The translations under genes were made by a program, and so were the position numbers. A stretch of 64,000 bases of DNA from Haliclystus octoradiatus (taxonomy: Eukaryota > Cnidaria > Staurozoa > Stauromedusae > Haliclystidae). Below the pieces are notes generated by a model. The model saw only the letters and a program-made list of their open reading frames with translations. It had not been told where the DNA came from and made no database searches. The stretch covers positions 3,212,146 through 3,276,145 of the forward strand of contig OU744447.1 in NCBI GenBank assembly GCA_916610825.1, written 5' to 3'. Below, piece after piece: positions 330 to 63,540 of this stretch (positions within the stretch are counted from its first letter, which is position 1; each line of letters opens with the position of its first letter).

Positions 330-593
330 ATGCAGTACCAAGTTCAAATGGTACAGCTTGTACGACACTACCGGCTGAATTTGTTGCTTTGCATTTATAA
401 AATCTAGTATAAGGCGCCTCTGACGCTGTTGTTATAGTATATACTGCAGAAGAAGCCAGTACTTTATTTGTTTCATCAAGCCATTGATATGAAGGTAAAG
501 GCACGCCACTAACGGAACAAAAGAAAACAACTTGCGTGCCAACTTGAGCAAAGTTATTCGGTGGAGACATTTGTGATTGAATAGAATCAATAT
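330..593 (-). CDS. Gene B exon 32: Ig-like domain 25 (last exon in window)
   Basis: 88 codons. Core: FFC, YQWLDE, RFYKCKATNSAG. Ends T|GTAAGT in phase 1, so the reading frame must continue left of the window. There is no stop codon and no poly(A) signal candidate here. Confidence 0.85.
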
Positions 594-30500: not shown

Positions 30501-33500
30501 TGCGCTTAACACCATTAGTAGTAACTAATTTATCTCTCATTTTTCTCTAGATGTTTTAATTAAGCACTACGTCAATAACTTGATTGTACAGTTATTTCTA
30601 TAAAATTTCGTTACAAACTTAAATTTGGAATTGATGTTATTAAAATCAAACTGAGCTACAAGCAATCATTTTTGATAATTCTTCAGACTTTTACTTTCAA
30701 GACTTTAGAGGTTTGCTTATTCTTCAAACCTGATTTTTCAAAACTAGCACTATGTCTTCGTACGTGGTACTCTGTCTGTGAAGATATACTCCACGCATTA
30801 ATTTATGACTAATACAAACAAAATTATGCTAAGTGCTACGGTACTAAATACTAAATACCTACATGTAACGTGTTTAATGGTATACTGAAAACATTAAAAA
30901 AATATTTGAGGTTTCGAGTATCACAGAGCACACAGCAGGAACATCTTAATTTTGGCATTCAAACTGTGTTAATAAATTAACCAAGCTCCAGGCCCACAGT
31001 TCTTGAACGTTGAATTGCCCAAATCAAAAATTCCTGTTAACATGAACTGTTTATGAACTCTCTTTGTGAAAATTTTTATAAAAATTGGGCCATTTAACGT
31101 TCATGAAAGGTAAATGAACTATTTATATGGTGTTCAAAACAGTTCGTGAAAGTTTGTAAAGATTTGTTCATGAAAACGATTTTTGAAAGTTTGTAAATTT
31201 GTTTGTTTGCTAGTCTGTAAAGTTTTTTTGTATTTGTTTTTACTCAAGTCACTTGTTCATGAACTGCATGTGAAGTGTTCATGGGAACAGTTCAAGAATT
31301 TATGAACAGTTCATGAACTCAACACATTTTATCGCAGGAGAGACAATAAGCTTAAGTTTGAAATTAACTTACAGTATGTTACAAATACAAAGGTTTTAGT
31401 AATTGAATATGTGTTATCATTGCCGTGCGTTACAACACAGATATGTTGATCATCATAGACTTTCCCTGAGCCACCACCAAGACTGAGTTGAAAAGCAGAG
31501 GTACCAGATTGTCCGTCCCAAGTATATCCTGGCTGAGGACATCCACTTTCACATGTTGTTGTACATGATAATGTCTCAGAAGAGCTAGTTTGGCCAGCAG
31601 TTATAATAAAAGTTTCTTCAATAGTAATCGGTGCAATAATTTCCGAACGCTTTTTATTGTCAAGATCTGCAAAGGTATATTCAATTAACATGATTAACAC
31701 AATAAATAAATAGTCCAACAATTATAATATCATGTATTGCGATAATTTTGATGAACTCATGTAATTACTCTATGAATTTTGAAAATCTGAAAACATACTG
31801 AAAAAGTATTGAAAACGTATTGGACAGGCTTCTGAAATGGACACTTTTCAGCAGGTTTCAAAGGTGTGCTTCAGTAGTTTTTCAGTAGAATGAGGAAAAA
31901 TCTAGATTATATTTAATTGTTTGATGTGTTTCAGTATGATTTCAGCAGCAATTCAGTTTATCCAAGATTCATAGTGTATTATATATGATGAAAATAAAAT
32001 TGAATCAAGTATATCCAGAGTAAACGATTGAACCAATATTAATATCGTAGTCATAACAAACAGTAAGAATGAAATATAAAAAATACGAATCACAAAGATC
32101 ACCACCTTTTCCTTTGATAACTCCAAACAACTAACAATGAAGTGTTACAAAGCATATGACTTTGTGTCAACTTAACATATATGACTATGACGTAATAATT
32201 ACAATTCCAATAATGTATACTTGATATTGCAGTATCATACTAGCATAGCCATAAATTCATCTTGAATTAGTTAAAAGAATCTACTCTAGATTTTGTTCTT
32301 CTATTATGCTCTTAGCCTGTGTGCAGACAGAACTTTTCTTCATATAGTCTGTTTGCGCATTAGCGCCCAATTTAGCGTACTGATTGTTCTTTCCACTGCC
32401 ACTTTTTTGGCAGCAAATTGTGATTGGCTAATAAAATATATGAACAATTGGCCAGTATTTTAAAATAAAGGAAATTGAGTAATAACAGGAAATCACATTG
32501 GGTAAATATTTGATTTAATATGAATTCAGTACAAACACTTGGTATGCGATACTCAGTGCCAATACGCAAACGGACTATACGAAGGAAAAGAACAGTTCAG
32601 GAAGTTTATGAACAGTTCATGAGTTCATGAAGAGTTCATGAACTGTATAGGAAGTGCTCATTAACGTGTTCATGAACTGCACGTGAAGTGATTATGAAAT
32701 GTTCTGCCAAATAAAGACACACATATATGTGAATTGGAGGTGGCGTCGAATCAGATTTTACGGAAATTGACCATGGGTACGAGCTATGTGAAATCTGAAT
32801 CGGATGCGAATTTCAAGATTAAAAAATAATAAAATCCGCTCCAAATTTTATTATCCAAAACCCGAAAAGAATCCAAAATTTTTTGCTTTTTAAAAAAGAT
32901 TTTCAATGTCACAATTTGACTGTTATCGACATTAATTATTACTCAAATTGCCACTACAGCTTCTTAATCATGAGACTGATCATGAACATTGTTTGATTAA
33001 ATATTGTGACAAATGTTGTTGAACTGCTAAAACAATGTGAAAAAAATTCAAAATCCGAATTAATCCGACAGAAAAATGTTGATACTATTTGACCCAAAAG
33101 CTGTGTGTCAATGCGGATCTCTATGGTGTTTTCATAACATTTTAAATTAACACTTTATTATATTATATTTATACTGTACTTTAAAATGACTGTAAAGCGC
33201 CTGGATTCATGTTTAGAAGTGACACTATATAAATACCATTATCATTATTATTATTATTATTATTACTTTCATGCTGTTTTGGTGTTGGCAGTGCTGTATT
33301 GAATTTTGCATGAGATTATAAACTTACGGATAATTTGTAAGGAAAATGAAAATGTTGCATCTGGATTATTAAAATTGCTAGCGACAGATGATTCGCATAG
33401 ATATTGTCCAGTGTTTGCTGATGTAGCTGGATTAACAATCATATTATTGGATGTTAGACCATCCCACTGCGATGGTGATTGAGGATTGGCTGTATCTCGA

Positions 33501-36500
33501 CATTGATATGTTTCATCATCTCCAACGACTAGATACACTTGAGAAATAATTGGTGTGTTTGTAATGTCACTTGCCGCTGTAATCTTTATACTTCCAACTA
33601 ATTAAAAGAAAAGAAAAGAAAGAGGAACCATCTCAAAGATAATGATCACAGATAATCTATTTTCATGAGTTCAGTGACATTTGTTCATGAAACTGACAAG
33701 ACAAAATGTTTGTGAACTGTTCATGAACTTGTGAATTCAATTTGTGAGCTATTTGAAAATTACTTAATCACGACTTACCTGGTGATGTAATTTGAAGCAT
33801 ATTAATTTTGCTGGTAATATTACGCGGATCGGTAAACAAATGAAAATTTGCTGTAAAAAACAACAAGAAATTTAAAACTTTCAAATTATTGATTAGAGGT
33901 GTAATGTCTCCACATCATATAGATGAATCTTGGAAACGCTGTATCAGAATAATAAGTGGACTCAAGCTGACAGTTATATTTTAGTTATTAAATACAGTGA
34001 AACCTCAGTAGATACAGGCCAGCTATGAGAGGTAGGTAAATTGACCACTATATGCAGGTGGCCTTTATAATACAGGGTTGGTTAAATAGAAAATACTACC
34101 GTGAAACCTGTATATATAGAACCCAGCCTAAAAAGCTAGATAACTTGATCACTATATGCAAGCTAGCCTTTAGATTTTGGATTGAAATTTTTGAGTGTTT
34201 TCCCCATTGACTTTGTGTATTAATTTTGAGGGGCATTGAGTGCTCATTACCCAATATTCTTTTGAACTAAAATTTTGAACTTATGATTTTCTTATCGATT
34301 AGAACAATAAAATCGAGAATGAAATTCAACTTTCAAACTTTCATTTATTTTGGATCAATCGAATCTTTATATAGAGAGTTGACTCAATGGAAAGTACTGT
34401 TATAGATATACCAATAGTGACTACTATAAACAGCTGACCACTGTAGGTCTATAAAGGTGGTTATAAGATGTTTGACTGTATCCAGATGTTATTTACAACT
34501 TGACACCTTTCTTCACAGCCCTAAATACCAACTTCAGATTCTATTAAACTCGACCAAGCCCCCTGGTTAATTCCACCATTAGCTTATCATTAAGAGGTTT
34601 TGGTGCACCAGGCCAATGATAGGAAGGAAAATAAACTATAGGCCTACAAGCTCAATATAGAAGAAACTGTCTATAACGACACCTCTAGGGAGACTTTCAG
34701 AAAGAAGGCCTATATTATGGACGATGTGCCGTTATAACGAATATTTATAGCCTAAGGAGAAAGATCAAATTTAACCAGGAACATCAGTACGTTATTGACA
34801 GTAATCCATTAAAAAAGGTGAAGCTATAACCAGTTTCTAGTCTATTATAAAAAGCTCCAAGAGAAGAGTTCAGTGTAGAATTATTACATATCTATTAGTT
34901 AGACATATCTATTGTACAAAAAAATTATATTAAATTGCAAACTTTTGAAGAACGCATGTTTTTTTGAAGAGTTGATAAACAGTTCATGAGTTTTCAATTT
35001 CACATTCATGGATGCTGAAATAATTAGTAATCAAATGAAATGTTGAGCTCATTTGTAACTCCTGCACTTTGATAGGTTATTTCATATGTTTTGAAAGATT
35101 AGAATGCCTTCAACAATTCCTTCCTGTCTCCCAAAATATATTGTGTAGTGAAGATGAATAAATATGTAGCAAGTATATCGTCATTCTTTAATGTAACAAT
35201 GATGAGATAACGTATTATTATGGTATCAACTTACGTCTGACTCCAATACCAGCCATGAGAAAAAGATTGTGAAGATCTTCAAACTCAAACATGTATGGAC
35301 CAATGGATTGAATTCTCCTATTCCATCTGAAATGAAATAAAATGACAATTAATGATAGTTAATAGTTAATGATAGTTAATAGTTTGTTTACGATATTGAT
35401 CATCTAGATCAATATTACAACGGATATCGTTATAAGTTATAAAACAGTTGAGATATTGTTTACATTAGATTTTGTATAGCTGAGTAACAAACAGTCGTGT
35501 TTTAGATAAATGTTCTTTAACTTCATAGTATATCATTTATTCGTTTACTTACTTTTATCTCACAACTACAACTATATATACATTGGTATAAGTCGCTTTG
35601 TGACAAAAATAAAATGAAATGTTGTTACGTCTAGTTAGTAATTGGGACTTTATCACCCTACCGAAGGCGCCTATCCCATACAACTCTTCTATTGCTAGAT
35701 GAAAGGCTCTTCTCGCTAAGCACAATTATTGTCATTTATATTCCTAAGAAGTTACTCTTAATTGGAAAAGGCTTTTGCTTCATTTCTGTGTCTATTCTAT
35801 ATGGTAAATATTATAATTATCTATTATAAACATGCAACTTAGTTGAAGTTAGTTAAAGTTTAACAATTTAAAAAAATTATTAGAAGGGTTAGCTGTATAT
35901 TATGTATTATTTATCTCGCTTCCCTTGGGAGGATTAGCTCAAATGGGAGAGCAACCGAACTTCAGATCGGATGATATCTGATCGACCGTGGTTCAAATCC
36001 CCCTAAGGTCAACTCAGCCTTGACTTTATCTGAAACATCAAATGAGTACCATCTGAGGATGGCGGATGGAATGGTCCAGAGGGAATTGCATTGTGAGTAG
36101 CTGCGGCGCATCGTTGCGCATTGACAATCAAGACTTATCTGCTATGAAATCTGTTGAAATTGATCTGCAGTGTCGCGGCTGAGATCAACAAAGAGCGTTT
36201 AAAATCATTGCTCTCAGCGAAAAAAGCCACTCATCTAGAAATAGAGGAGTGGTACGGGTGCCTTTGGTAGGGCGACACCGTCTACATTACTTTTACTTAA
36301 AGTTGTAAAGCGCCATTGGATTATTCAAGAAATCAGTCAATCATATCTGAATCATATAATAAGATCTGTCATCTAAGCTAATACTCCATATACTGTTACA
36401 TGACCAAATAGTTGGTAGACCTGCCGATGAAACTGATAGATCGAAATTGAACGCTTTACATTGATTTATGGTGACTTCAGGTTTATAAATTACTATTGAG

Positions 36501-39500
36501 AAAAGAAGATTAGGACTTCCCAAATTATTTCTTTTGATGTAAATAGCAACTATGTAATTCTAGTTTTGCATTTTGTGTGAGATCTAAATTTACTTACTGA
36601 AAACATTTGATATGCTTACCTTACGTATCAAATTTGAGTACACAAACAAATGAATTATGATTGAAATATTAGTAGAAGAAAATAAATTTGAAACAAGAGA
36701 AACAATTAATCAGACGGTGTAAATTGTAGACTATTTTGAAGCATGTGATATGGATTTATATATGTCTTTGTTATGAATCGTATGTGTGATGTTTAAATTT
36801 GACTATGGTAGACACTGCAAACAAATTGTCGAGTTCATGAACTGTTCATGAGCTATTCATGAACTCTTGAACTGTTAATGAACTTTATAAATTTCCATGA
36901 ACTGTTTATGTACAGTTCAATGACACCTTATTAACAGTTGAAGAACAGTTCTGTAGGATTTAGTTTTGATATTGTTTATGGTAACATGTCTTTCTGGTCT
37001 CAGTTATATATCTGTGTGAAGTGTTGTCTTTAGAATGAGTTGAATGTATGACGTCATGTGGTATTTTAGGTATTGTGCATGTTGCTCATGTGATTGTACT
37101 GTTTGAGTGCATGTGAATTGCCATGTGATAATTAGTGATGTATTGTGATTGGTGCTTCTTATTGTCATGTGTGATTAGTAACTGTTACGTGTATTTTGCA
37201 TGAGTGCCGTTTCTCTCTCTTGCTTGTTGATCTCCATACAAAATTTATTGTTTTATATCATTGTTTCAGGATTTCTCACTCTGATTCCCTCTCTCAAGTT
37301 GAGATGCCTGTAACAATAACATTAGTATCTGAGGACTATTTGTAAACAGGGCCATATAAAGTTCATATAATAAAGTGCTTATGAACAGTCCGCAAATGTT
37401 TGTAAAGATCATGAACGCAGTGAATTTTTTGAACTGTTTTTACAGGGGAATTGTAGGATACTAGGTTCGTACTCATTAAAAGAAAGAAGATACTTTGTGA
37501 ACAACAAGGATTTATCAAATTAGTGAAACATCTCCATTATATCATGATACCTAGCGAGAATAATTATCAAAAGTTTGTGACATACCGGCAAACCATGTAT
37601 TCTGAATCAGCAGAAAACTCAGCTTCAATTTCACTAAGAGCAGACTAGAATGCAAAATTAACCAAATAGATAAACACTATTGATGTACAAGGTTACCATG
37701 AAAACATTTCTTTCAGATTCTATAGCAAAACAGTGTATCCCTCTTAAGTAATATCTATCATAATACCGCTAAATATGAAGTCTATATGAAGTTGATTTTA
37801 CGGGTATAGACAGTCCATCTGATGTACAATGAACGTTATTTTTAATGATTGAACTCAAAGTTAATCTTAATTTATTGTTAGACTATCTTACCCCATCAAA
37901 CGATGCTGTCATAAAACCATTATTGTACGTGAACGGGTATATAAGGGGATTACTTGCATCATCAACATCAATAAAGCACAATTCTCCTCCCATATTATCA
38001 AAGCTGAACTACAAACAAATAAAAAGAAATGAAATATAAACAATGAATTCATGGTCTATTAAGTTAGATGTTTCATTACAGGTCTGACGTAAAAAATTTC
38101 ATGAATCACAAAATTCGGTTCAGTCGCTGTCAAATCAAACAGCTTCGTTCAAAACAAAATAAAAACTTCACTCTTAAACACGGAATAGAAAATTCAGGAA
38201 ATTGTCAAATAAACAATTAATTATTATTAATAACAATAACATTAGTATTTGAGGACTATTTGTAAACAGGGCCATATAATTAATGTTCATATAAAAAGTG
38301 CTTATGAACAGTACGCAAATCTTTGTAAAGATCATGAACGCAGTGATTTTTTAACCAAATGTTTTCAGGAATTACAGGACTCAAGCACGGGTATCTATTC
38401 CGGGATTCTGGTTTTGTCATTTTCTGCTGTTGAGATGCCCTAATCTCCTGTGAAAAACAGTTCAGGAGTTCATGAATAGTTCTTGAAAATTGGAGCCATT
38501 TAAAGTTCATGAACTGTTCATGAACTCTTGAACTGTTTTTACGGGGGAGAACAATTTTAATTTTCAATTTAATACTTGCATGCCTTATCCAAAACAGTAT
38601 AATGTTAAATTACTTATAGCAAAACATTAACAAAAGTAAACGTTAAGAAATTTAAGAAATCAAAATGTTGGTAGTGCTTTTCATAGTCTTTTTTTCAGCA
38701 AATAATTGAACTAATTTTATTTTATATTTTTTAAGTGAAGAAATGTTATAGATCATTTATGGCTGATTCTTAGTAATAAATTTGATGTGTTGCAAAATAC
38801 CCTTGGAATGCTATATGGCATAAATTCATATGTAGTTATGAAATTAAGCTAATACTGGCTTCGAAAAGCACCTACATAAATCCTTTTTTAAAACATTTAC
38901 AAAATTTGCTTAGATCTACCTCTTTTAAACGGCATTTAAATAGATTTAGAGACATTGAATTTACAACATTTTCTGGTAATACATTCCACATATTTACAAC
39001 ACGAAATGAAAAAAAATGACTTCTATAAGGGGGTCGGGCCATCAGGGGACAGTGTTTCCCTGGAAGAAGTAGTGGGGGCAGAACGCTGTTATCTGTGTTC
39101 CCCCATCGAAACTTGGCATGTCATGCAATATGCCTACATCCAATAGAAGAAAATTTCTTTGTTTCAGGTTTCAATGGAAACAAATTTCAATCGTTTGCAC
39201 CCCCTGGCTGCATTCGGCAGTATTGTAGGACCTACCCAGTGCCCACAACCCATTTTTCCAGTTGTTTTCATTTATTATTATGTATATTATAGTGCTATAT
39301 AGTATTTGGCTGATCAATTGGCTGTAGTTAATTATCCTGGATTTGGATAAATGATATCATGAAACCATCCCTGCTTCCATGAACCATACTTTAGACCAAA
39401 TGTTTTGATAAAAATAATATCGATTTCATCCATAGTAGGCCTATCTATCCAATTCAAATTTTCAAAGTAGTCAATGATATGATAACTATTATACAGCATT

Positions 39501-42500
39501 CTGAAAATTAAATCTTTCTTGGATATTAAACTGATCATTTATATACAATATAATGCTGGTTGGATGGATGTAATCAACTTGACTTGGAAGTAAATAATAA
39601 AATAAATCATCGAAGAAATCTCAGCTATTATTACAGTTTGTCAGCCATGTTGGCAAGATGCCCGCGAAAAATTTGAGTGATGATTCAGGCCTGCGTATTA
39701 GCCTGCTTGCAGGCTCTTTATTGCCTGCTTGCTAGAGGCCAGATAATAGATTATAGAATCTTTCGTAACTTGCATACTATAATATCCTACGTTGCTCAAT
39801 ATTTTTTATTGTCGTGATCGAAAAATTAATCTACAAATACACTTATAACTAACAAATCAAAATCAAGCTTAAATGTTCACTAAAAAATAATTGCGCTTAT
39901 TCTAAATGACAGGAATACAGTTTAAAGCTTGGCGGCCTTTATAGGTCTACGACAAGTAGCACAAAATACACTCAACAATTTTCATCACATAACAAATAAT
40001 CCGTATAGTGTATGTATCACAGCAGAGGGAATGAATACATTACAAAAATTTAGCAAGCAATACACAGAATGAACAAGATATGGTGCAAATATCGATAACT
40101 GGTTTGGTAAATTGAAACACTTGTAAAAACATTCAGTGTCGATGAATTACATTTATAATTACGTTATGTTACACTCACATTTACAATGAATTTTATACAA
40201 TATCAAATTATGGATGTTCACATTATTATTCAAATTAATGTTGAATTGCTGTTACTTTAAAGTTTGAATTTTCTTTTAATTTGTTTCTTAGCGATTTCTT
40301 TTTCAATTCCAGTTTCTCTAAGTTACAAGCAGTAAGCCCATGCCGTTCGTGTACGAAAATTATCACACTCCATATAATAAATTATATTACCTTGTAGACA
40401 AATAAAAAATAAAATCATCAGTATTGATTGTTATCTTCTAAACCAGAGTGTTGTGCTGCTACATCCCAGGTAGATTAAACTTTTGGGATTTGCAAAAAAT
40501 TCAAGCGTGTTTGCTTCAAGAGTCCATCTGATCTCCTTATGGATAAATTACGAAATTCTTTTTCACAGTTCCACAACAATAATAAATAGACTTTCCGAAG
40601 GTGCTCATCCACGCAATGAATTTCAGATAGATGTTTTATCACTGCCGAGCAGATTTGTAGGGAGTAGATCAAAATTGTTGAATATATTTGACACATCTTT
40701 TGAGAAGAGTAGATTCATTTGGTCGTCAATAAATAAAGTTGATAAACTTTTATCTTCATCGATTCGATGGATAATTTTATATCAGTGTGTTTTGATCGTG
40801 TGTGAAGGGTTACTGGCACCGTTAATAAACCACCTTTAGTTTTCCAAATCCTTAAGCAATATTAACATTAGTGTAAACTTCTCTGTAGGCGCTCTTTTCT
40901 AAACTTTCACCGATAGAGTTCGCCATTTTCTTCATGGCCTTTCACGTTTAAGAAATTCGAGGTACTGAAAATCATTGCTATTTAGTTGACCATCCATTGC
41001 AAAATAATGAAATAATCAAGCGTACTTTTACTAGCCAGCTTGAAGATATGAACGATGATGATAAAATGAGTAGAACAGTCGACCGCGTTGTTGTAATGAC
41101 CCTTGTGAAAATTTGTCACAAAATTCTGTGTCGGCTCAAGAACACGTGTTTCCGGTAAATCTCAAACAAAAACATAATTCGTGCCCAGGCCTTAGTTGCC
41201 AATCCCTGTATTCTATGGCCAGATTAATATTTTCAACGATCAATGTGAGTCATTGCTTCCCAAGCTCCCATGGCTTCAAACTGCAAGTTCGACTAGTTCG
41301 AGCATGGTTTCAGCCTTCAGACACAGAAACAATACGAGCGACAACTTCATCTAGACTAGATACGAAAGTAAATCTAAGCGCGCGTAGAGCCCAAGAGACA
41401 TTTTTACTCCTTTTAATTATAAAATTGACCATTTCGCCTTGCGGGACTAAAGTTGAAAAATGAATATCATTTTTCAAGCTGCAAGTAGTGTTGTGAATTG
41501 ATGCATAAGCGAAAAGGCCGCTGGTCAATTTTATGATCTTATATGAGCTACTGTACTCACTTGCTGATTAAATGCAAGATAGCTAAATATCGTTCCGTCT
41601 GTAGTTGAAACCTTTGTCCTTGTTGTAAATTTAACAACGGTTTCAATAAGAGAAGGTTCGTAATATATCTCAAATGCACAATCCGATCCACCAAAAGTGC
41701 ATGACGTTGTTGCACCAATATCATCAAATTTGAGACAACCGATTGTGACACCACACTCAGCAACAAGGGGAATGTGTATAGTCTATGAGTAAAATAAAAA
41801 AAGTAAAATAGTGACGGTTTCGCCCTACCGAAGGAACACGTACTACTCCTATATTTCTAGATGAGTGGCTTTTTTTCGCTAAGAGCAATGATTTTAATAG
41901 ACCGAGCGCCACAGAACTGAAACGGCAGGTTTCTCCTGGCAACTTGAAAATTCCATAAAAGTGGCATAAAAATATGCTAAACAATTCCCTATTTCTTGTT
42001 TTAATTGAATTTTATTGTAAACCGTTCAAAAATCCAATTTATATTTCATGATTCACGATCAAAGCAATCTTGTTATTTTGAGAAAATGCTGCATGCGAGC
42101 TTCATGGTCTTCGATTCATTGTTCCACAAGATTTTGCGAATCCATAGAAGCATGACGACAACACAAAATGTATGAATTAAGAGGGCTCTGACTGTGAAAT
42201 GATTTATAAATTCATCTCTGGTGAGCTCCACAATAAAATTTGACTAAAACAAGGAACGGGAGAGAAATTCATAGTATTTTTGTATTTTTACATTTTATGT
42301 GAATTTTGAATTAAACCTGCCGTTTTATTTATGTGGCGCTCGGCCTATAAACATCATTGCATTGCTCTCAGTGAAAAGAGCCGCTCTTCTACAAATAGAG
42401 GATTGGTACGACGGGTGCCTTCGGTAGGGCGATACCGTCTAAATTACTAATTTTTACGAGAGGTATACAGATTGACCACTATGCAGGTGGTTTTATATAC

Positions 42501-45459
42501 AGGGTTGGTTTCCAATAGAAAATATTACAGTGAAAACTGTATATAGCAACCAGCTACGAGAGGTAGATGGATTAACCATTATATGCAGGTGGCCTTTATA
42601 TACAGGGTTGGTTTTCAATAGAAAATATTACAGTGAAACCTGTATATAACAACCATCTACGAGGGGTAGATAGATTAACCACTATATGTAGGTGTCCTTT
42701 ATATACAGTGTCGGTTCAATAGAAAATATTACAGTGAAACCTGTATATAGCAACCAGCTACGAGAGGTAGATAGATTAACCACTATATGCAGGTGGCCTT
42801 TATATACAGGGTTGATTCACTAGAAAATACTACAGTGTGAAACCTTTATATAACAGCCAAGTATAAGATGTAGATAAATTGACGACTATATACAGATGAT
42901 ATTTATATACAGGGATGATTGAATAAAAAAAATACCAATTTAGACGTACTAAGAGTGATTACTATTGACAGGTGATCGCTGTATAGAGGTGACCGTTATA
43001 TCAGGTATGACTATATTAATACTCAAATTTCATTAGGATAATATCATTCTTCATGAATAGAGCTGTAATTTTTACTTACTGGATGGAATGGGATCGGTGT
43101 GATTAAGCCTGGGATTAAGGCTAGTGCTTGCATCATTGATACCCACAAAGTTAGTATGACCTAAAATAGAAAGATCAAATAATATTACATAGCATTTGGT
43201 TTGAATTAAAAATCAAAATCGACAATTAAAATCTGGTTTCGTTTTTCAAATACAAGTAGAGTCAATAGACTACTTGAAATGCAATCATTTAAGTATTGTC
43301 TAGCTAAACAAATAATCGTGAAAAACAAACTACTTCAAAGGTGGAGTACTTTTTTAGACATTGATGAATCTCAGAAGTTTATTATTTTGTAATGAATTCA
43401 AAAATCAATTCATACAGTCCAACATAGCTGTGAAGCCCCTTCAGGGATGTTTGAAATATAAATTATTTGCCAAAAGGTTTTCATGACAAAATATGAAATA
43501 TAAATAAACATAACAACGTGTTTTTATTCTTGAGTTGTTCTCAACAATTACAGATATGAAAATGGATAATTTCAAATTTAAATATTTGTCGATGATTTTC
43601 GGAATGTAATATGAAACTTTGTTCGAATTTGATGTTCCAATTTGATCAGGAGTTTTCAAAACATTTTATGAGCAAGAAAGTCATGTAGATGCTTGTAAAA
43701 GTTGGGCAAGTTATAATAAAAAGGAATTGGCCCACAGTTTTCTATGAGCTATTGATATTTGGCGCACGAGAGGCACGTAAGGAGAAAACAAAAAGGCATC
43801 AGAAATTACGAGCCGCTCTAACTTATTGTTGTGTAAGTGCATAGCAAGGAAAACGATATTGAATCAAAATCTATTTGTTGTTTCTAGCCAAACTTTCTCG
43901 TCAGTTACATCCAATTTGATGCTTTGACTTACATGCAAATGAACGATACTTCTAAGCTCAAACTAAGAATAAGAGAATAGACGCTGAATATAATTATATC
44001 TTTTGCAAGAAACACATTTTTCCTCGCAGTAGTGATGTATTCTGGTAATTATTTTCATCAATTATTTGCCCGAATCAGAAAACGAGAATTCATCAAACAA
44101 TAACTTTTGCACCGTCAAGTCTAGCTATCACCACTGCATCTCCACTGCATAATATCTTTCCGTAACCCATGAAAAGCAGCCTTTAATATTTAGCAAAGCT
44201 AATTGATTCGCGTTGGAGACTGACTTCTATCAGTATGATGAACTCATTGAGCTCAATTGCTGATTTGTTATTCCTTGTATCTTCATATCACCGACTGATA
44301 TATGTACTCTTCCTACTACTGACACCAAAACCATGGTGAAAAAATCGTAAAATTTTAATTGCGTTTTCATGGCATTTTCGTGAATATGGATGTTTTCATG
44401 GTTTTCTAACTTTTTCATGGCTTAAAAAATTTGTGATTTTCACTTTTTACATTTTCATGGTGTTTTCACAACACTTTCATGACTTTGATGTTCGTATTGT
44501 ATATATAGTGCTTAGCATCATACTTGGTGATGTATCTTGTGATAACTTCATGATAAAAATGAGCAGCGAAAACAAGTCGAATGGCTTGACGTCTCAATGG
44601 ATGGAATTGGAAAGCACAGGGTGGCATGTTAATGAAAGTATGACAAAACTTTCGCAAGAGTAGCGCTTCTAAATATATGGCCCAACATAAGCCGGCTGTA
44701 AATTATTTCTATAGTACGGTTTGCTACTGTATGAAAGTACGTCATAAGTTGAATATGCTATGTCAGTCTTGTGGAACAAATATAATTTTAACTTAAATAA
44801 GGGCAACATGCAACTGACTTAGTGGAATAGTAACTAATAACTTGGCAAAACTATGACACTATTTGCGTTCATCGTTCGCGGTAACAAGGAGGTTGATTTA
44901 GTTCCAGTGTGATGTTCGTTACATACTAGTTTTCTTAACAATTTATAAACTTAATTGACAAAACGGCTGGTCGGACACGTGTTTCGTCCCTGTCAAGAAG
45001 CTCATCAGGCATCGCGCCTAAAGTCCCGCTAACGAATTGTATAGATTGTGACAACCTCGATGCATAAATTCGTAAATTATAACTATATTATATCAATTCA
45101 GTGAGATCAAGTCTTCGTAAAGCTTATAAGATTTTCCTACTTTATGATTGATATGTTAATGATCTTAATCAAATAGTACGGTGATCAAATAGTATTTGGA
45201 ATAGTATCATCGAATAAATTGTGACATTCCTTGAAAGTATTATATGACGGCCAAATGAAAGGAAAGAATCAAATTCCTCTACTGTGTTATTATTTTATTT
45301 TTTCATGTATCATATCTAATTCTATATCACTTTCCTCAATCGAATTATACAGTAAAGTTGAAAGTAATAGATTATAAATTAATAGAAATAAATTCTATTA
45401 GCTATTGTAGATATTTAATAATAATAGAATCTACTTACTCTGAAAGGTATTTTCCACAT
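330..45459 (-). CDS. Gene B: secreted/cell-surface DOMON-multi-Ig protein (3' partial; 32 exons in window)
   Basis: Gene-level entry; the exons are listed separately. Seen: an ATG exon, a signal-peptide exon, five exons forming a DOMON domain (residues about 42-219), then 25 single-exon Ig-like domains. All exons are flanked by AG and GT on the minus strand, and the phases (0,0,0,0,2,1, then 1 throughout) join without a stop for about 2440 residues. The signal peptide puts the product in the secretory pathway. The anchor is not visible because the gene runs off the left edge. Inferred from the neighbouring gene A: the missing C-terminus may carry EGF-SEA-EGF-TM. I know no named family with DOMON plus a long Ig array, so the function is open; extracellular adhesion or recognition is the likeliest class. 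Confidence 0.85.
651..960. mobile_element. Family-2 MITE (CACCAAAACCATG ends)
   Basis: Inverted ends ACGGACACCAAAACCACTG and CATGGTTTTGGGTGTTGCT; AT-rich interior with repeated TTTCATGGTTTCATGG and TTTTCACATCGTGAATATG, partly duplicated internally. Confidence 0.65.
1361..1512. repeat. 48-bp tandem repeat derived from GTTCATGAAC element
   Basis: Three near-identical 48-bp units, each GTTCATGAACTGTTCAGGAA, CTCTTCATGAACATTGGGGC, CATTTAAC. Tandem amplification of the MITE interior. It creates a spurious plus-strand ORF. Confidence 0.8.
1609..1845 (-). CDS. Gene B exon 31: Ig-like domain 24 (short type)
   Basis: 79 codons. Core: IEC, IYWDLD, TTYVCKD. Ending IGRVQVIVN matches domains 20 and 22. 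No conventional ORF marks it because it has no Met. Confidence 0.83.
2128..2440. mobile_element. Two adjacent GTTCATGAAC-family copies
   Basis: First copy about 2128-2234 (CCCCTGCGAAAAAAG to TTTTTCGCAGGA), second about 2297-2440 (CCCTTGCAAAAAACAG, right end truncated). A SINE-A scrap lies between them. Confidence 0.65.
2602..2862 (-). CDS. Gene B exon 30: Ig-like domain 23 (long type)
   Basis: 87 codons. Core: LSC, YQWLKTD, DAGSYVCKTTND. Begins with DVPTATSTPS and TVNEG, resembling domain 21. Confidence 0.86.
2954..3104. mobile_element. GTTCATGAAC-family MITE, complete
   Basis: Ends CCCCTGCGAAAACAGTTC and GAACTGTTTTTCGCAGGGG are inverted repeats, flanked by TA on both sides. The interior consists of GTTCATGAAC palindromes and the block GGAGCCATTTCACGTCCATG. 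A TA duplication suggests a Tc1/mariner-type transposase acting in trans. Confidence 0.8.
3205..3313. mobile_element. GTTCATGAAC-family MITE
   Basis: ACCCTTGCAAAAACAG left end and CTGTTTTTGCAAAGG right end flank three GTTCATGAAC-like palindromes. Confidence 0.65.
4225..4461 (-). CDS. Gene B exon 29: Ig-like domain 22 (short type)
   Basis: 79 codons. Core: LRC, VQWNTD, KAGSYTC. Same length and ending (GTGSIIVN) as domains 20 and 24. Confidence 0.85.
4944..5234 (-). CDS. Gene B exon 28: Ig-like domain 21 (long type, no core Trp)
   Basis: 97 codons. Cysteines FTC and FSCEATN; the C-strand Trp is replaced (FEILSG). Extra cysteines: one in PPRCFSC and one in TEICLIV, which could pair with each other. 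Begins DVPTISMSPSS, like domain 23. Confidence 0.83.
5287..5335. mobile_element. Minimal 49-bp GTTCATGAAC-family element
   Basis: Only the terminal repeats remain: CCCCTGTGAAAAACAGTTC, ATGAACTCC, TGAACTGTTTTTCGCGGGG. It is a near-perfect hairpin. Confidence 0.72.
5417..5653 (-). CDS. Gene B exon 27: Ig-like domain 20, both core cysteines lost (short type)
   Basis: 79 codons. The Ig fold signature is clear (SGQSAVLQF, GNPTPQLKW, DAAVYTVTDNA), but B-strand Cys is Phe and F-strand Cys is Thr, so no intradomain disulfide can form. Length and the ending GTVQLIVN group it with domains 22 and 24. Confidence 0.83.
5870..6200 (-). mobile_element. SINE-A copy split by a MITE
   Basis: The SINE body is continuous between 5870-5922 and 6048-6200 when compared with the copy at 8682-8908. 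A GTTCATGAAC MITE (5923-6047) lies between, flanked by TG on both sides. The MITE therefore inserted after the SINE. Confidence 0.7.
5923..6047. mobile_element. GTTCATGAAC-family MITE nested in SINE-A
   Basis: CCCTTGCGAAAAACA and TGTTTTTCGAAGGG ends; interior includes GGGGCCATTTAACGTTCATG. Flanked by TG/TG rather than TA. Confidence 0.75.
6985..7239 (-). CDS. Gene B exon 26: Ig-like domain 19
   Basis: 85 codons. Core: IAC, FIWKFNG, NDGQYSCTASGEAG. Acceptor is TTCGCAG. Confidence 0.86.
7695..7798. mobile_element. GTTCATGAAC-family MITE
   Basis: TA-flanked; left end degenerate (CGCCTGCTAAAGACAG), right end GAACTGTTTTTTGCAGGGG intact. Confidence 0.75.
8026..8081. mobile_element. Short GTTCATGAAC-family element
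   Basis: CCCCTGCAAAAAACC left end, TTTTTCGCAGGA right end, one central palindrome. A second, degenerate copy lies at about 7895-8015. Confidence 0.68.
8682..8908 (-). mobile_element. SINE-A (tRNA-derived), near-complete
   Basis: On the minus strand it starts GCGGCCTTGGTGTAGTGGTT (box A-like) and carries GGTTCAATCCC (box B), followed by a body GGCGTCAGGAAGGGCATCC and ending in a 19-nt poly(A) (plus-strand T8682-8700). Best copy of the family; others at 5870-6200, 16672-16800, 25733-25870, 56908-57072 and about 62490-62670. Confidence 0.8.
8955..9212 (-). CDS. Gene B exon 25: Ig-like domain 18
   Basis: 86 codons. Core: FSC, FQWYRNN, HDGMYHCEASN. It lacks a nearby Met and so is missed by ORF calling. 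A SINE-A copy sits 47 bp past the donor. Confidence 0.85.
9468..9775 (+). mobile_element. SINE-B copy
   Basis: GGTCAGCTCAGTCAACTC, then GATGGCGGATGGAATGGTTC and the terminal GGTAGGGTACCGTCTC. A poly(C) run of about 13 at 9508-9520 replaces part of box B. Confidence 0.65.
10296..10491. mobile_element. GTTCATGAAC-family MITE, long form
   Basis: CCCCCTGCGAAAACAG to CTGTTTTTCGTTGGG, with an expanded interior (five palindromes, both GGCC-ATTT blocks). Confidence 0.7.
10600..10795. repeat. CAGTACTTTTTCAGTA repeat cluster
   Basis: Direct and inverted copies of TTCAGTACTTTTTCAGTA. Similar clusters with TTTCAGTAG occur at 12180-12300, 31780-31970 and 59140-59640, suggesting another short interspersed family. 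Confidence 0.55.
10803..11066 (-). CDS. Gene B exon 24: Ig-like domain 17
   Basis: 88 codons. Core: FTC, YKWHKD, HHGVYKC. A CAGTACTTTTTCAGTA-type repeat cluster lies immediately past the donor (10600-10790). Confidence 0.85.
11528..11818 (-). CDS. Gene B exon 23: Ig-like domain 16
   Basis: 97 codons. Core: LGC, IEWYYGG, DTGSYECRATN. The C'-E region is longer than in its neighbours (VASTAPVDGQ). Confidence 0.86.
12298..12480. mobile_element. GTTCATGAAC-family repeat, degenerate
   Basis: Several ATGAACTGTTCATGAAC-type units with eroded ends (TTTTCTTAGCAGGAAT on the right). Abuts the donor of Ig exon 15. Confidence 0.55.
12491..12745 (-). CDS. Gene B exon 22: Ig-like domain 15
   Basis: 85 codons. 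Core: ITC, FKWNFNG, TAGSYTCTASN. The donor abuts the end of a GTTCATGAAC element (about 12298-12480), leaving only some ten bases between transposon and splice site. Confidence 0.86.
12801..13006. repeat. Tandem repeat of about 60 bp, 3-4 copies
   Basis: Units built from GGGATTAACTAACTTGCCCC, TGTGAAAACAGTTCAT and TTTTTTGCAGGGGGA; a GTTCATGAAC-family end amplified in tandem. Confidence 0.7.
13010..13390 (-). pseudogene. Non-LTR retrotransposon reverse-transcriptase fragment
   Basis: The minus strand reads VEHSKYFGGILNKHLTRKEH and, after a frameshift, HFDYASIVWGDKGNSC and LQTLQNKAARIILDRD, the thumb and C-terminal region of LINE reverse transcriptases ('yLGv.ld..L.w..Hi', 'lqkLQNraaRiI'). Frameshifted and truncated on both sides. 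Lies in a gene B intron in the same orientation. Clade (CR1/L2-like?) not determined. Confidence 0.7.
13560..13743. repeat. (CATA)n microsatellite interrupted by a MITE
   Basis: CATACATACATACAAACATA on the left, CATACATACATACATACATA on the right of the element at 13605-13708. Confidence 0.85.
13605..13708. mobile_element. GTTCATGAAC-family MITE inside a CATA microsatellite
   Basis: Terminal repeats CCCATGCGAAAAACAGTTC and GAACTGTTTTCGCAGGGG, flanked by TA. (CATA)n sequence continues on both sides (13560-13604 and 13709-13743), giving a clear view of the empty site. Confidence 0.82.
13799..14059 (-). CDS. Gene B exon 21: Ig-like domain 14
   Basis: 87 codons. Core: FTC, FKWYKDS, HSGVFECRSEN. 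The junction residue with domain 13 is Trp (T|GG). Confidence 0.86.
14692..15627. mobile_element. 936-bp fold-back element flanked by TTAA
   Basis: Arms of about 400 bp read AGTGTATATCCCGGATATTG from the left and its complement at the right, diverged by scattered substitutions; the centre includes GCACCTCTTTGCGACTTCGTC and its inverse. TTAA at 14688-14691 and 15628-15631. No transposase reading frame. It splits a GTTCATGAAC repeat (14585-14690 and 15640-15790). TTAA duplication is typical of piggyBac-like transposition. Confidence 0.8.
15795..16135 (+). mobile_element. SINE-B copy, 5'-truncated
   Basis: GATGGAATGGTCCAGGGGGA through TAGAAATAGAGGAATGGTGC and GACGATACCGTCTC. Lacks the tRNA head. 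Ends about 30 bp from the donor of Ig exon 13. Confidence 0.65.
16166..16426 (-). CDS. Gene B exon 20: Ig-like domain 13
   Basis: 87 codons. Core: MIC, YTWYKNN, NDDDYSCKAENE. A SINE-B copy ends about 30 bp past its donor site. Confidence 0.86.
16672..16800 (-). mobile_element. SINE-A fragment
   Basis: GGATGCCTTTTCTGACGTCA and the CCACTACACTAAAGCC tRNA-like end on the plus strand match the family in minus orientation, with internal deletion of the box B region. Confidence 0.6.
17485..17745 (-). CDS. Gene B exon 19: Ig-like domain 12
   Basis: 87 codons. Core: ITC, ISWYRD, DAGDFTCKATND. The C-terminal strand reads IKIFVY before the split codon. Confidence 0.86.
17803..18050. mobile_element. 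GTTCATGAAC-family repeat, long degenerate
   Basis: CCCTATGAAAACAATTCATG to ATTTTTCACAGGTG, with a roughly 50-bp internal duplication containing ATGAACTGTTTATAAGGTGT. Confidence 0.6.
18702..18956 (-). CDS. Gene B exon 18: Ig-like domain 11
   Basis: 85 codons. Core: LTC, FEWEFAG, QGNYVCRAKNAAG. An extra cysteine (GGCSLTYP) lies in the A strand. The strong I-set consensus (GNPSPTFEW) makes this one of the clearest domains. Confidence 0.87.
19775..20110 (+). mobile_element. SINE-B copy
   Basis: Degenerate head (AGGAGGATTAGATCAGATAG; GGCTCAAATCCCCC), the conserved GGATGGCGGATGGAATGG body, and the TAGAAATAGAGGAGTGGTAC tail. Confidence 0.7.
20153..20407 (-). CDS. Gene B exon 17: Ig-like domain 10
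   Basis: 85 codons. Core: IITC, YEWFFDD, NAGLYVCAATN. Only about 530 bp separate it from domain 9. A SINE-B end lies about 50 bp past its donor. Confidence 0.86.
20940..21194 (-). CDS. Gene B exon 16: Ig-like domain 9
   Basis: 85 codons. Core: LTC, YEWYIDG, DTGDYTC. I-set-like length and motifs. It has no internal Met near its start, so it would not appear as a conventional ORF. Confidence 0.86.
21230..21430. mobile_element. GTTCATGAAC-family repeat, degenerate
   Basis: CCCCTAATAGAAACAG start; repeated GTTCATGAAC and CACCTCATAAA motifs; weak right end (TTTCATAGAGG). Confidence 0.55.
22322..22591 (-). CDS. Gene B exon 15: Ig-like domain 8
   Basis: 90 codons. Core: LVC, VTWIKEG, HAGQYHC. The acceptor flank is CAAATCTAATTACAAACAA; a near-identical short stretch recurs at about 22723-22757, a partial duplication of this exon's 5' border. 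Confidence 0.85.
22766..22940. mobile_element. Family-2 MITE
   Basis: ACACTACGGAAACCAAAACCATG to ACATTTTCATGGTTTTAGTG. Lies just past the duplicated border of Ig exon 8. Confidence 0.62.
23357..24194. mobile_element. 838-bp fold-back element with 10-bp target duplication
   Basis: Ends AGCTTGCGCGCAGACCCAAA and the inverse of AGCCTGCGCGCAGACCC; arms of about 110 bp also share ATTAGTAGGGTCTGCGTAAT. AACAACTTGA is present directly on both sides (23347-23356, 24195-24204). The interior is unique AT-rich sequence with no transposase. Mutator-like or hAT-like size of duplication; superfamily unproven. Confidence 0.75.
24318..24572 (-). CDS. Gene B exon 14: Ig-like domain 7 (core Trp replaced)
   Basis: 85 codons. 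Cysteines are present (LVC, RYTC), but the C-strand tryptophan is leucine (VQLYMDG). The A strand carries LNPTGELIVNEGD. It sits within a 1.7-kb repeat-rich stretch but has clean splice sites. Confidence 0.84.
24776..24877. mobile_element. GTTCATGAAC-family MITE
   Basis: CCCCCAACCAACAGTTCAGG to CCTGAACTGTTTCTCGCAGG; flanked by TAT-like sequence. Confidence 0.65.
25733..25870 (+). mobile_element. SINE-A fragment, plus orientation
   Basis: Contains GGTCTTCAGTTCAATCCCTG (box B) and ends in CCACCCCGGAGAAAGAAAGC and CTTACCCGGTTTGTG, the 3' body of SINE-A. The tRNA 5' part is degraded. Confidence 0.6.
26010..26315 (-). CDS. Gene B exon 13: Ig-like domain 6
   Basis: 102 codons. Core: TFTC, ITWKVK, GGDYRCC; a further cysteine (DEKC) follows in the F-G turn. 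The donor is AGAG|GTAATT, so the junction residue is Asp rather than the usual Tyr or His. Confidence 0.83.
26463..26672. mobile_element. Family-2 MITE
   Basis: CATTACCAACACTAAAACCATG to TTCGTGGTTTTAGTGTCAGT; interior CATCCATATTTACGATATTA is the family hallmark. Confidence 0.7.
27039..27196. mobile_element. GTTCATGAAC-family MITE
   Basis: CCCCTGCGAAAAACAGTTCA to CTGAACTGTTTTTGGCAAGG with internal ATGGCCC block. Confidence 0.72.
27576..27869 (-). CDS. Gene B exon 12: Ig-like domain 5
   Basis: 98 codons. Core: ILDC, YIWTKD, NSGVYGC. The B-C loop is a Gln/Ser/Asp run (QQQSQSQDQDS), a low-complexity insertion. One additional cysteine (ITC) follows the F strand. Confidence 0.85.
27925..28115. 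mobile_element. GTTCATGAAC-family repeat
   Basis: Left end CTCCTGCGAGTTCAGG has lost the A-run; right end TTAACTGTTTTTAGCAAGAG. Six partial palindromes inside. Confidence 0.6.
28375..28405. repeat. Interstitial telomere-like (TTAGGG)4
   Basis: GGGTTAGGGTTAGGGTTAGG in an intron of gene B. The motif equals the common metazoan telomere repeat. Confidence 0.8.
28656..28913 (-). CDS. Gene B exon 11: Ig-like domain 4
   Basis: 86 codons. Core: ELTC, FDWTF, NAGTHKC. An unpaired extra cysteine (DEYCAANG) lies in the A' strand and may pair with one elsewhere in the array. Confidence 0.85.
28970..29165. mobile_element. Family-3 MITE
   Basis: GGTCATCCCTATATAGCAGT to GTGGCTGTTATGTATAGGTTTC; left end eroded. 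Similar copies: 1-55, 14080-14240, 33995-34170 and 34370-34480. Confidence 0.6.
29316..29633 (-). CDS. Gene B exon 10: Ig-like domain 3 (largest of the array)
   Basis: 106 codons, the longest Ig exon here. Core: TIEC, IKWFKG, NGVNILCEVTNDVG. An acidic loop (NDDDGNED) sits between B and C strands and a long C'-D region follows. It has no early in-frame Met, so it is easily overlooked; exon phases 1-1 and splice sites are intact. Confidence 0.82.
29838..30345. mobile_element. Expanded GTTCATGAAC-family array
   Basis: About 500 bp of repeated ATGAACTGTTTATAAGGTG and CATGAAAGTTCATGAACTAG units, with right end TTTTTTTACAAGTG. Longest array of the family in the window. Confidence 0.6.
30990..31340. 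mobile_element. GTTCATGAAC-family array, degenerate
   Basis: Contains GGGCCATTTAACGTTCATGA and repeated ATGAACTG units; ends TTTTATCGCAGGAG at 31327-31340, about 30 bp from the donor of Ig exon 2. Confidence 0.55.
31373..31666 (-). CDS. Gene B exon 9: Ig-like domain 2 with extra cysteines
   Basis: 98 codons. LSC and HICVV are the likely core cysteines, with YTWDG as C strand. Between B and C strands it has two more cysteines (TTCESGC), which could form an additional disulfide. A glycine-rich stretch (LGGGSGK) lies in the E-strand region. Confidence 0.8.
32331..32591. mobile_element. 260-bp MITE with TATAGTCTGTTTGCG inverted ends
   Basis: Left CTTCATATAGTCTGTTTGCG mirrors right CGCAAACGGACTATACGAAG, arms about 38 bp. 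Internal sequence AT-rich, no ORF. Lies between Ig exons 1 and 2 of gene B. Confidence 0.65.
33328..33597 (-). CDS. Gene B exon 8: Ig-like domain 1
   Basis: 90 codons. Core residues: TYQC (B strand), QWD (C strand), NTGQYLC (F strand). Immediately follows the DOMON domain. The upstream segment before the first Cys is long and contains IIS/YLVV strands. Flanks are AATTAG and GTAAGT. Confidence 0.85.
33779..33850 (-). CDS. Gene B exon 7: end of DOMON domain with candidate haem-ligand His
   Basis: 72 bp, phase 1-1, residues 198-221. PNFHLFTDPRNITSKIN resembles the 'l..H.....S..i.l' last strand of DOMON domains; His201 sits where the second axial haem ligand would be. This exon ends the domain, and the phase becomes 1, matching the Ig array that follows. 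Confidence 0.75.
35235..35326 (-). CDS. Gene B exon 6: DOMON domain, C-terminal strands
   Basis: 92 bp, phase 2-1, residues 167-197. RWNRRIQSIG is followed by FEFEDLHNLFLMAGIGV, which matches the 'fdL...yyllfA.G' end of DOMON domains. Acceptor TTTCAG and donor GTAAGT are both strong. Confidence 0.75.
35931..36300 (+). mobile_element. SINE-B (tRNA-derived), near-complete
   Basis: The head GGAGGATTAGCTCAAATGGG (box A) and GGTTCAAATCC (box B) form a tRNA-like unit of about 73 nt; the tail contains TAGAAATAGAGGAGTGGTAC and ends near GGCGACACCGTCT. The same tail recurs at 9505-9775, 15840-16135, 19775-20115, 42345-42450, 60590-60770 and 61640-61890. Confidence 0.78.
37586..37644 (-). CDS. Gene B exon 5: DOMON domain, strand before conserved Cys-x-W/F
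   Basis: 59 bp, phase 0-2, residues 148-166 plus two bases of Arg167. Ends in EYMVC; with the next exon this reads C-R-W-N-R-R, the counterpart of the DOMON 'i.C.f.R' strand. Donor is CCG|GTATGT. Confidence 0.72.
37892..38008 (-). CDS. Gene B exon 4: DOMON domain, Met-Gly motif
   Basis: 117 bp, phase 0-0, residues 109-147. FDNMGGELCFIDVDD corresponds to the D-x2-M-G-x3-V-x-C segment of DOMON domains. Met114 falls where the methionine haem ligand sits in haem-binding members such as cellobiose dehydrogenase cytochrome. Flanks are TTTGTAG and GTAAGA. Confidence 0.75.
38445..38547. mobile_element. GTTCATGAAC-family MITE
   Basis: CTCCTGTGAAAAACAGTTCA to TTGAACTGTTTTTACGGGGG; interior GGAGCCATTTAAAGTTCATG. 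Confidence 0.7.
38872..39020 (-). pseudogene. LINE ORF C-terminal tail fragment
   Basis: The minus strand encodes RVVNMWNVLPENVVNSMSLN, then LFKCRLKEVDL, ending at TAG 38872-38874. This is the typical C-terminus after the reverse transcriptase of non-LTR elements ('RvvnlWNsLPe.vv.a.s...Fk..L'). Only this tail survives, so it is a 5'-truncated insertion. Confidence 0.65.
41416..41540. mobile_element. Short MITE with ATAAAATTGACC ends
   Basis: TTATAAAATTGACCATTTCGC to GGTCAATTTTATGATCTTA. A second copy lies at about 53228-53325 with the same GCGCCTTGCAGG-type interior. Confidence 0.6.
41561..41782 (-). CDS. Gene B exon 3: DOMON domain, N-terminal part
   Basis: 222 bp, phase 0-0, residues 35-108. 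Contains ECGVTIGC (Cys44, Cys50), then Cys62 and Cys69, then a beta-rich stretch ending in FSYLAFNQQ. The C-G-x3-G-C opening, the two further cysteines and the following beta strands match the start of DOMON domains of the ferric-chelate-reductase-like group (FRRS1). No ORF longer than about 70 codons marks it, so it is easily missed by ORF finding. Confidence 0.75.
41795..42450. repeat. Nested palindrome: TIR element flanked by inverted SINE-B ends
   Basis: The core element is about 41900-42347 with ends ACCGAGCGCCACAGAACTGA and the inverse TTATGTGGCGCTCGG. On its left is a SINE-B 3' end in minus orientation (41810-41900), on its right a SINE-B 3' end in plus orientation (42350-42450), both meeting the element at the same SINE position. 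Confidence 0.65.
42455..43020. mobile_element. Family-3 MITE (CAGTGAAACCTGTATATA) amplified in tandem
   Basis: Units of about 101-103 bp starting CAGTGAAACCTGTATATAGC at 42528, 42631, 42732 and about 42832, each with CTACGAGAGGTAGATAGATT and GCAGGTGGCCTTTATATACA, then a complete right end TATAGAGGTGACCGTTATAT by 43017. Confidence 0.75.
43080..43160 (-). CDS. Gene B exon 2: hydrophobic core of signal peptide
   Basis: 81 bp, phase 0-0, residues 8-34. The hydrophobic run VILTLWVSMM followed by QALA gives an n-region (WK, R), an h-region and an A-x-A site, so cleavage after Ala21 is predicted. Flanked by TTTTAG and GTAAGT. An alternative reading frame is open but does not fit the phases of the neighbouring exons. 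Confidence 0.72.
44318..44505. mobile_element. Family-2 MITE in gene B intron 1
   Basis: CTACTGACACCAAAACCATG start; GAATATGGATGTTTTCATGG interior; right end eroded (TTTCATGACTTTGATGTTCG). Confidence 0.62.
44969..45008 (-). ncRNA. Hammerhead-ribozyme-like motif (probably degenerate)
   Basis: The minus strand reads CTGATGAG (45008-45001), a 13-nt possible stem-loop, CGAAAC (44986-44981), ACGU loop and GUC (44976-44974): the order and spacing of hammerhead catalytic cores. Stem II as written has mismatches, and stem I pairing is weak. Such motifs are known from Penelope-like elements and retrozymes. Confidence 0.35.
45439..45459 (-). CDS. Gene B exon 1: start codon and first 7 residues
   Basis: A 21-bp coding part, MWKIPFR, followed by a GTAAGT donor. 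The ATG has A at -3. It joins in phase 0 to exon 2, and together they form a signal peptide, which is why this start is preferred. The 5'UTR extends to the right with no recognisable boundary. Confidence 0.7.
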
Positions 45460-47967: not shown

Positions 47968-63382
<15,415 letters not shown>

Positions 63383-63540
63383 CTGTAAAAAAAACTTAAA
63401 ATCAGGAAAAGAATACAAATTTGTGCATTGCACCTTGGAGAGAGATGATTTGGAGAGCGACAGGTTTGCCATAGCAAGAGCAGCATACAACAAGCATGTA
63501 GAAGTTAAACACATAAAGCCAGTTAAGAGATGTTATTAAC

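Follow-up and report, generated by a model that had tools for sequence, protein, structure and literature searches.

Organization of the locus

A single chain of 32 exons, here called gene A, runs on the minus strand from 45459 to 330 of the window, by which we mean the whole 64,000-nucleotide stretch of Haliclystus octoradiatus DNA that was analysed (C2:3212146-3276145). Its internal borders were set from splice sites, and all of them carry AG/GT signals in compatible phases. The length of 30 of the 32 exons is a multiple of 3, and the joined exons give 7,327 nt, or 2,442 codons with no stop. Two exons for a signal-peptide-like stretch are followed by five exons for a head region and then by 25 immunoglobulin (Ig) exons. 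An earlier, sequence-only reading of this DNA had proposed a signal peptide, a five-exon DOMON domain and 25 Ig exons joined in frame, and as an exon chain that proposal was correct, down to its endpoints at the ATG of exon 1 (45459) and the end of Ig exon 25 (330). A further 100 kb was fetched on each side of the window, negative coordinates denoting positions before its start, and genome searches covered 33 contigs totaling 261.86 Mb. Scans of the window for tRNA genes and Rfam families returned no matches. Elsewhere in this genome, the mitochondrial COX1 gene contains 8 in-frame TGA codons, as is expected for a cnidarian.

The 5' end of gene A was placed by splice signals. Exon 1 (45439..45459, minus strand, like all coordinates of gene A below), the weakest exon of the model, supplies the ATG and the start of the signal-peptide-like stretch (MWKIPFR) and ends at a GTAAGT donor, while exon 2 (43080..43160, AG/GT, phase 0-0) holds the hydrophobic core. 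The head exons are labeled B through F. Exon B (41561..41782, phase 0-0) encodes the N-terminal half of the head and four of its six cysteines; it has counterparts in four paralogous loci, B, C, D and E, and matches a profile of FRRS1-type DOMON exons discussed below. Exon C (37892..38008, phase 0-0) encodes SFDNMGGE, with a putative haem-ligating methionine, and is identical to its counterpart in paralog B at 19/39 positions. Exon D (37586..37644, phase 0-2) is identical at 6/17 positions and shows no clear constraint, exon E (35235..35326, phase 2-1) is identical at 20/30 with a dN/dS of 0.13, and exon F (33779..33850, phase 1-1), identical at 9/23, carries a putative haem histidine that paralog B keeps.

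The Ig array begins with Ig exon 1 (33328..33597), which is 48% identical to its counterpart in paralog B and has no further match in the genome at E <= 0.01. Ig-like exon 2 (31373..31666) is divergent, has extra cysteines, was bounded by splice sites, and shares 37/97 residues with paralog B. Exons 3 through 25 are all in phase 1-1, multiples of 3 in length and flanked by AG/GT. Exons 3-8 lie at 29633-29316, 28913-28656, 27869-27576, 26315-26010, 24572-24318 and 22591-22322; exons 9-14 at 21194-20940, 20407-20153, 18956-18702, 17745-17485, 16426-16166 and 14059-13799; exons 15-20 at 12745-12491, 11818-11528, 11066-10803, 9212-8955, 7239-6985 and 5653-5417; and exons 21-25 at 5234-4944, 4461-4225, 2862-2602, 1845-1609 and 593-330. 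The count of 25 comprises 24 exons detected by a hidden Markov model (HMM) plus Ig exon 2, which was added since paralog B has its counterpart. Because the HMM was itself built from 26 exons of the window, Pfam served as the independent check. In the 2,442-residue product it found 13 families at E <= 0.001, the foremost being Ig_3 with 649 bits over 19 stretches, above its cut-off, which places these domains in the immunoglobulin superfamily. When Ig1 and Ig2 were submitted singly, neither passed a Pfam cut-off (Ig1, E 0.044; Ig2, no match). The nearest PDB matches of Ig exon 11 are DSCAM, Robo and contactin.

Gene A continues past the window with three further Ig exons, reaching -4465, so that the in-window count of 25 stands and the whole gene has 28. 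The array is followed by an EGF exon, two SEA-like exons, an EGF_CA exon, a transmembrane (TM) exon starting at about -16827, and a short tail whose coding part runs to -17961; a stop comes next, and there is an AATAAA at -18144. The total span is about 64 kb. Pfam backs the EGF and EGF_CA domains. Its SEA family did not match the SEA-like halves of A or B, which were joined for this search without a missing small exon. Phases agree throughout the C-terminal part except between the two SEA-like exons, where an exit in phase 0 meets an entry in phase 2, and one small exon therefore appears to be absent from the model. The SEA-like module contains the motif GSIY in A, B and C, a putative GS-type SEA cleavage motif. 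In the same three loci the TM exon ends with basic residues. The tails contain tyrosines in differing contexts: that of A ends IITYIR, that of B has VTYGTL, which to our eye resembles an inhibitory ITIM, and that of C has DYYEWDNNGLYML. The giant adhesion-type stalk that had been proposed is thus supported, with the addition that it is anchored in the membrane by way of the EGF, SEA-like, EGF_CA, TM and tail exons.

An inverted paralog and selective constraint

Gene A has relatives on its chromosome, and the family numbers at least five loci (A, B, C, D and E). The first of its relatives, gene B, lies to the left of gene A in inverted orientation, tail to tail, with the coding ends about 12 kb apart and its DOMON exon at C2:3106163. 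Each of the two genes has 27 HMM-detected Ig exons plus Ig2, and the order of the C-terminal modules is common to A, B and C. The distance from exon B to Ig1 is about 8 kb in gene A and similar in gene B, with the same exon order. The exon chain of gene A is thereby confirmed as more than a chance alignment of frames, since corresponding exons recur, in unchanged order, in a paralog on the other strand. Between the two genes, at about -25705 on the minus strand, is a single-frame ORF of 487 residues with transporter-like hydrophobic stretches.

Comparison of A with B used 37 exon pairs (5 from the head, 28 Ig exons matched by their rank, and 4 C-terminal), the signal peptide, TM and tail exons being excluded. 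Amino acid identity is 92/181 in the head, 1348/2419 in the Ig array and 94/177 in the C-terminal part, and the corresponding dN/dS values are 0.30, 0.31 and 0.28, with synonymous sites saturated in six exons. The exceptions, without clear constraint, are head exon D (17 aa, 1.57) and the second SEA-like exon (55 aa, 0.72). All six head cysteines of A are kept in B.

Two features of this pair stand apart. Ig exon 20 (window 5689-5391 in A and -57875..-57577 in B) is identical at 77/78 residues and, in nucleotides, at 94.3% of 299 bp. The exons on either side are much less alike, and the similarity looks like an exon-sized gene conversion. Gene B also contains head exon C twice (L034, 5370-5501 and 6050-6181) with a run of N between the copies; an assembly gap, masking and a local duplication are alternative explanations.

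The Ig exons of both genes are in phase 1-1 and could be skipped without a frame shift, as would suit a Dscam-like generator of isoforms in which Ig exons are alternatively included and no 28-Ig main product exists. Symmetric exons are, however, also usual in constitutive Ig arrays. Moreover, every Ig exon of A has a partner of its own rank in B, and all 15 of the exonic matches seen when the two genes are compared as nucleotides join Ig exons of equal rank (the 869 other matches are non-exonic), which is unlike the pattern of freshly duplicated alternative exons. An isoform generator of this kind is accordingly improbable, and a 28-Ig chain is the reading retained here.

Paralogs with expanded Ig arrays

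The 3' end of paralog C, and not of gene A, occupies 47971..63383 of the window on the minus strand. It comprises Ig exons (63383-58608), an EGF-like exon (ORF from 56244), SEA-like exons with the GSIY motif (ORFs from 55358 and 52090), an EGF_CA exon (50530-50390), a TM exon (49279-49193) and a tail with stop (48120-47971). Long simple repeats, with poly-I/Y/L/N frames, lie at 53317-54469 of the window. From 58608 to 110862 in window coordinates, paralog C contains 106 Ig exons without stops, 89 of them in a tandem array that has a period of mostly 333 bp and encodes 34 distinct proteins. Candidates for its head exons C, D and F retain the phases seen in gene A; a counterpart of exon E was sought in paralog C and not found.

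Paralog D (window 141280-163990, plus strand) has at least 62 Ig exons, a lower bound because the array reaches the end of the fetched stretch; 61 are in the array, with 17 distinct proteins and no stops. Paralog E, at C2:2418660 and about 0.8 Mb away, was recognised by its head exon. The proteins of the head exons of C, D and E are 100% identical.

These loci bear on whether gene A is one gene or two, the second case being a gene for a secreted DOMON protein next to one for an Ig receptor, joined only by fitting phases. DOMON exons outside the family do exist on the same chromosome (L053, L054 and L056), and one of them, L054, has a signal-peptide-like stretch. Yet in gene A no stop precedes Ig1, and exon F exits in phase 1, the phase of Ig1; the order and the spacing of about 8 kb recur in the inverted paralog; and in C and D too the head exons precede the Ig arrays. 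A split into two adjacent genes is thus highly improbable, and head and array are treated below as parts of one product.

Identity of the head domain

The sequence-only reading called the head a DOMON domain and proposed the Pfam DOMON family, PF03351, as one check. That check failed: PF03351 matched none of the heads of A, B or C. Profiles of the MOX/DBH-type DOMON domains of this genome did no better, with hhalign E-values of 0.35 and 0.11 against the heads and HMM scores within those of shuffled sequences, and a PDB search with a profile of the A and B heads returned nothing relevant, only three chance-level matches. An AlphaFold model of exon B alone, a partial head, had low confidence (pLDDT 49.6). 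As a control, a MOX-type DOMON of this genome was compared with the PDB; human DBH came up at E 0.03 only, ranked behind an unrelated chain, and a missing match therefore says little for the DOMON family. The families treated in PMC4846438 are described there as distantly related in sequence.

Evidence on the positive side comes from the genome itself. PF03351 has 29 exon matches at E <= 0.001, on C4, C5, C7 and C11, several of them clustered, and those that were translated appear to be of MOX/DBH type. A whole-genome search with the head exon of paralog C found, beyond the family, three weak matches, all on C2 (E 0.1-0.5). Two of the three overlap weak matches that PF03351 gave independently in the same orientation (C2:8700059, E 0.003; C2:12250335, E 0.006); a PF03351 match at E 0.7 is situated 5 kb away from the third. 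In these three FRRS1-type exons outside the family (L053, L054 and L056, at 8.75, 12.25 and 8.70 Mb of C2), PF03351 is the best Pfam match, at E 0.017, 7.4e-5 and 1.7e-5, all below its cut-off; the signal-peptide-like stretch of L054 is just upstream. Head exon B and all three FRRS1-type exons are in phase 0-0.

Of 5,839 frames supplied to a profile built from the three exons, 5,241 were scored, and the heads of D (31.9 bits), C (31.0) and A (12.2) rank first to third; the B head falls outside this set. The next frame has 10.7 bits, leaving A a margin of 1.5 bits. None of 3000 shuffles of A or of C reached the observed score, whether the cysteines were free or fixed; for B, the figures were 33/3000 free and 66/3000 cysteine-fixed, a weak result. 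Nine accepted MOX/DBH-type DOMON sequences score 5.7-14.1 bits against the same profile, with A (11.8) inside this range and B (5.3) just under it. Against a joint profile of the A, B and C heads the match reaches E 3.5e-9, but this value and the scores of C and D are partly circular, because the three exons were found through the C head exon. With C left out, the A and B heads together match at E 3e-4 with a probability of 40%, and no column shuffle reached that score (0/300, and 0/300 with cysteine columns fixed). Restricting the profile to the two exons that overlap PF03351 matches gives E 2.1e-4 and a probability of 46%. Singly, the heads give 1.3e-4 (A) and 0.008 (B).

The head could instead be a six-cysteine beta domain that merely resembles DOMON, for example one of the DUF7057 family. 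The heads lack a PF03351 match, the strongest profile figure is partly circular, and DUF7057 is the sole Pfam family listed for the B head region, which is in turn the only match of DUF7057 in the whole genome at E <= 1. As an identification, however, DUF7057 is weak, with an E-value of 0.015, below its cut-off, for the B head and of 0.445 in the genome search. A look-alike must also contend with the FRRS1-type profile match obtained without C, the overlap of the genome hits with PF03351 matches, an exon phase shared with the FRRS1-type exons, and the weak showing of a MOX-type DOMON of this genome against human DBH. The spacing between methionine and histidine, about 87-88 residues, is also close to the 93 of fly CG8399, as given in the available part of PMC10691727. 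A mere resemblance is thus unlikely. Four things together make it very probable that the head of gene A is a DOMON domain: the overlap of genome hits with independent PF03351 matches, the moderate match of A and B, the homology of the A, B and C heads, and the shared phase 0-0. The earlier assignment survives in this form, through the FRRS1-type DOMON exons of the same genome and not through PF03351.

Haem binding and redox partners

The DOMON domains of CYBDOM proteins keep a methionine and a histidine (Met286 and His379 in the fly) and a motif SXDXXMGXD, according to the passages available from PMC10691727. The strict motif is absent from A and B. Gene A has SFDNMGGE with a histidine 87 residues past the methionine, and gene B has SVNGMGGE with a histidine about 88 residues past, a distance that may be off by one because the junction of exons E and F was set by hand in B. 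A relaxed motif, which was loosened after the A and B sequences had been seen, has a single occurrence in the frames of the region, 256,076 aa in all, and the motif with a downstream histidine arises in 30 and 9 of 200000 shuffles. In paralog C, the inferred exon reads SLAGQG, without a methionine, where the motif would stand. Of the haem-binding head suggested earlier, then, the part concerning A and B is plausible, given their Met/His pair in relaxed form, and haem binding by the heads of C, D and E is doubtful.

The relaxed motif and the similarly spaced histidine in A and B would also fit a redox-active reductase head of the kind seen in FRRS1/CYBDOM proteins, with an electron donor of its own. 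Against this, the strict motif is unmatched, paralog C replaces the methionine motif, no reeler domain appears among the Pfam matches of the in-window product, and matches to cytochrome b561 (PF03188) at E <= 0.01 in the genome are confined to C10 and C5, with none on this contig. A reductase of this type is quite improbable. No redox partner was seen among these matches, and redox activity of the gene A product is unsupported.

A candidate giant receptor

Taken together, the exon chain, its constraint, the domain order, and the TM and tail exons of the model suggest that the product of gene A is probably a giant receptor for adhesion or recognition, a type I membrane protein whose FRRS1-type DOMON head sits on 28 Ig domains. 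Such a protein would consist of a signal peptide, a six-cysteine DOMON domain, 28 adhesion-type Ig domains, EGF, SEA-like and EGF_CA modules, one TM helix and a short tail. At the cell surface, the Ig stalk would hold the head far from the membrane, at roughly 100 nm if extended, where the DOMON domain may bind a ligand, perhaps haem or a sugar, that belongs to another cell, a microbe or the matrix. Breakage or shedding of the ectodomain at the membrane could be mediated by the SEA-like module and its GSIY motif; the order of EGF, SEA-like, EGF_CA and TM modules together with GSIY suggests shedding or mechanical release. The tail tyrosines may signal.

A bolder version is conceivable but speculative: a new class of cnidarian recognition receptor with a haem-binding DOMON on an Ig stalk, an autocleaving SEA module and signalling by tail tyrosines, in which the length of the receptor is tuned from one individual to the next by minisatellite-like Ig exons of the C/D branch. 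In that branch, Ig exons present in scores of nearly identical copies would expand and contract, diversifying the receptors.

Comparison with known systems

Known settings of DOMON domains are monooxygenases, ferric reductases and membrane proteins that have no Ig stalk. The combination found here had been put forward as a new architecture, and no DOMON-Ig array appears among the open-access literature matches listed. A Xenopus FcR paper among the matches for DOMON has no DOMON passage in its text. A DOMON domain on a membrane stalk of 28 Ig domains would add a domain combination to the adhesion and recognition receptors of animals, and the Staurozoa gain a candidate receptor family whose five or more loci share one chromosome, two of them with arrays of more than 60 Ig exons.

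The head shares its cysteine pattern and phase 0-0 with the FRRS1-type DOMON exons of this genome, and the similar spacing of its Met and His with FRRS1/SDR2, CG8399 and CYBDOM, as described in the available passages of PMC10691727. Unlike FRRS1/CYBDOM proteins, which combine reeler, DOMON and cytochrome b561 domains, gene A lacks b561, has no reeler in its in-window product, and carries its DOMON on a stalk of Ig domains that has one TM helix. The nearest precedent among the literature matches listed is the Acropora B5 DOMON protein, also from a cnidarian, which the available passages of PMC3204972 give as a predicted type I membrane protein with DOMON outside and one C-terminal TM segment; those passages mention no Ig array, unlike gene A.

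On the Ig side, gene A resembles DSCAM, Robo and contactin in its arrays of I-set-like domains and differs from them in its DOMON head, its 28 Ig domains and its membrane-near EGF, SEA-like and EGF_CA modules; FN3 domains, which follow the Ig array in those receptors, are absent from the 13 Pfam families found in the in-window part, and the C-terminal exons are EGF, SEA-like, EGF_CA and TM. Hemicentin combines a VWA domain, a long Ig array, TSP1, G2F and EGF domains. Gene A shares with it the great length of the Ig array and the EGF-type domains that come next; it differs in lacking a VWA head in the Pfam scans, in its membrane anchor and in its SEA-like module. The Alr genes of Hydractinia encode allorecognition receptors with V-set and I-set Ig domains, and the passages available from PMC11999971 mention no DOMON head; as clustered IgSF genes of a cnidarian, they are like the present family and offer a candidate functional comparison.
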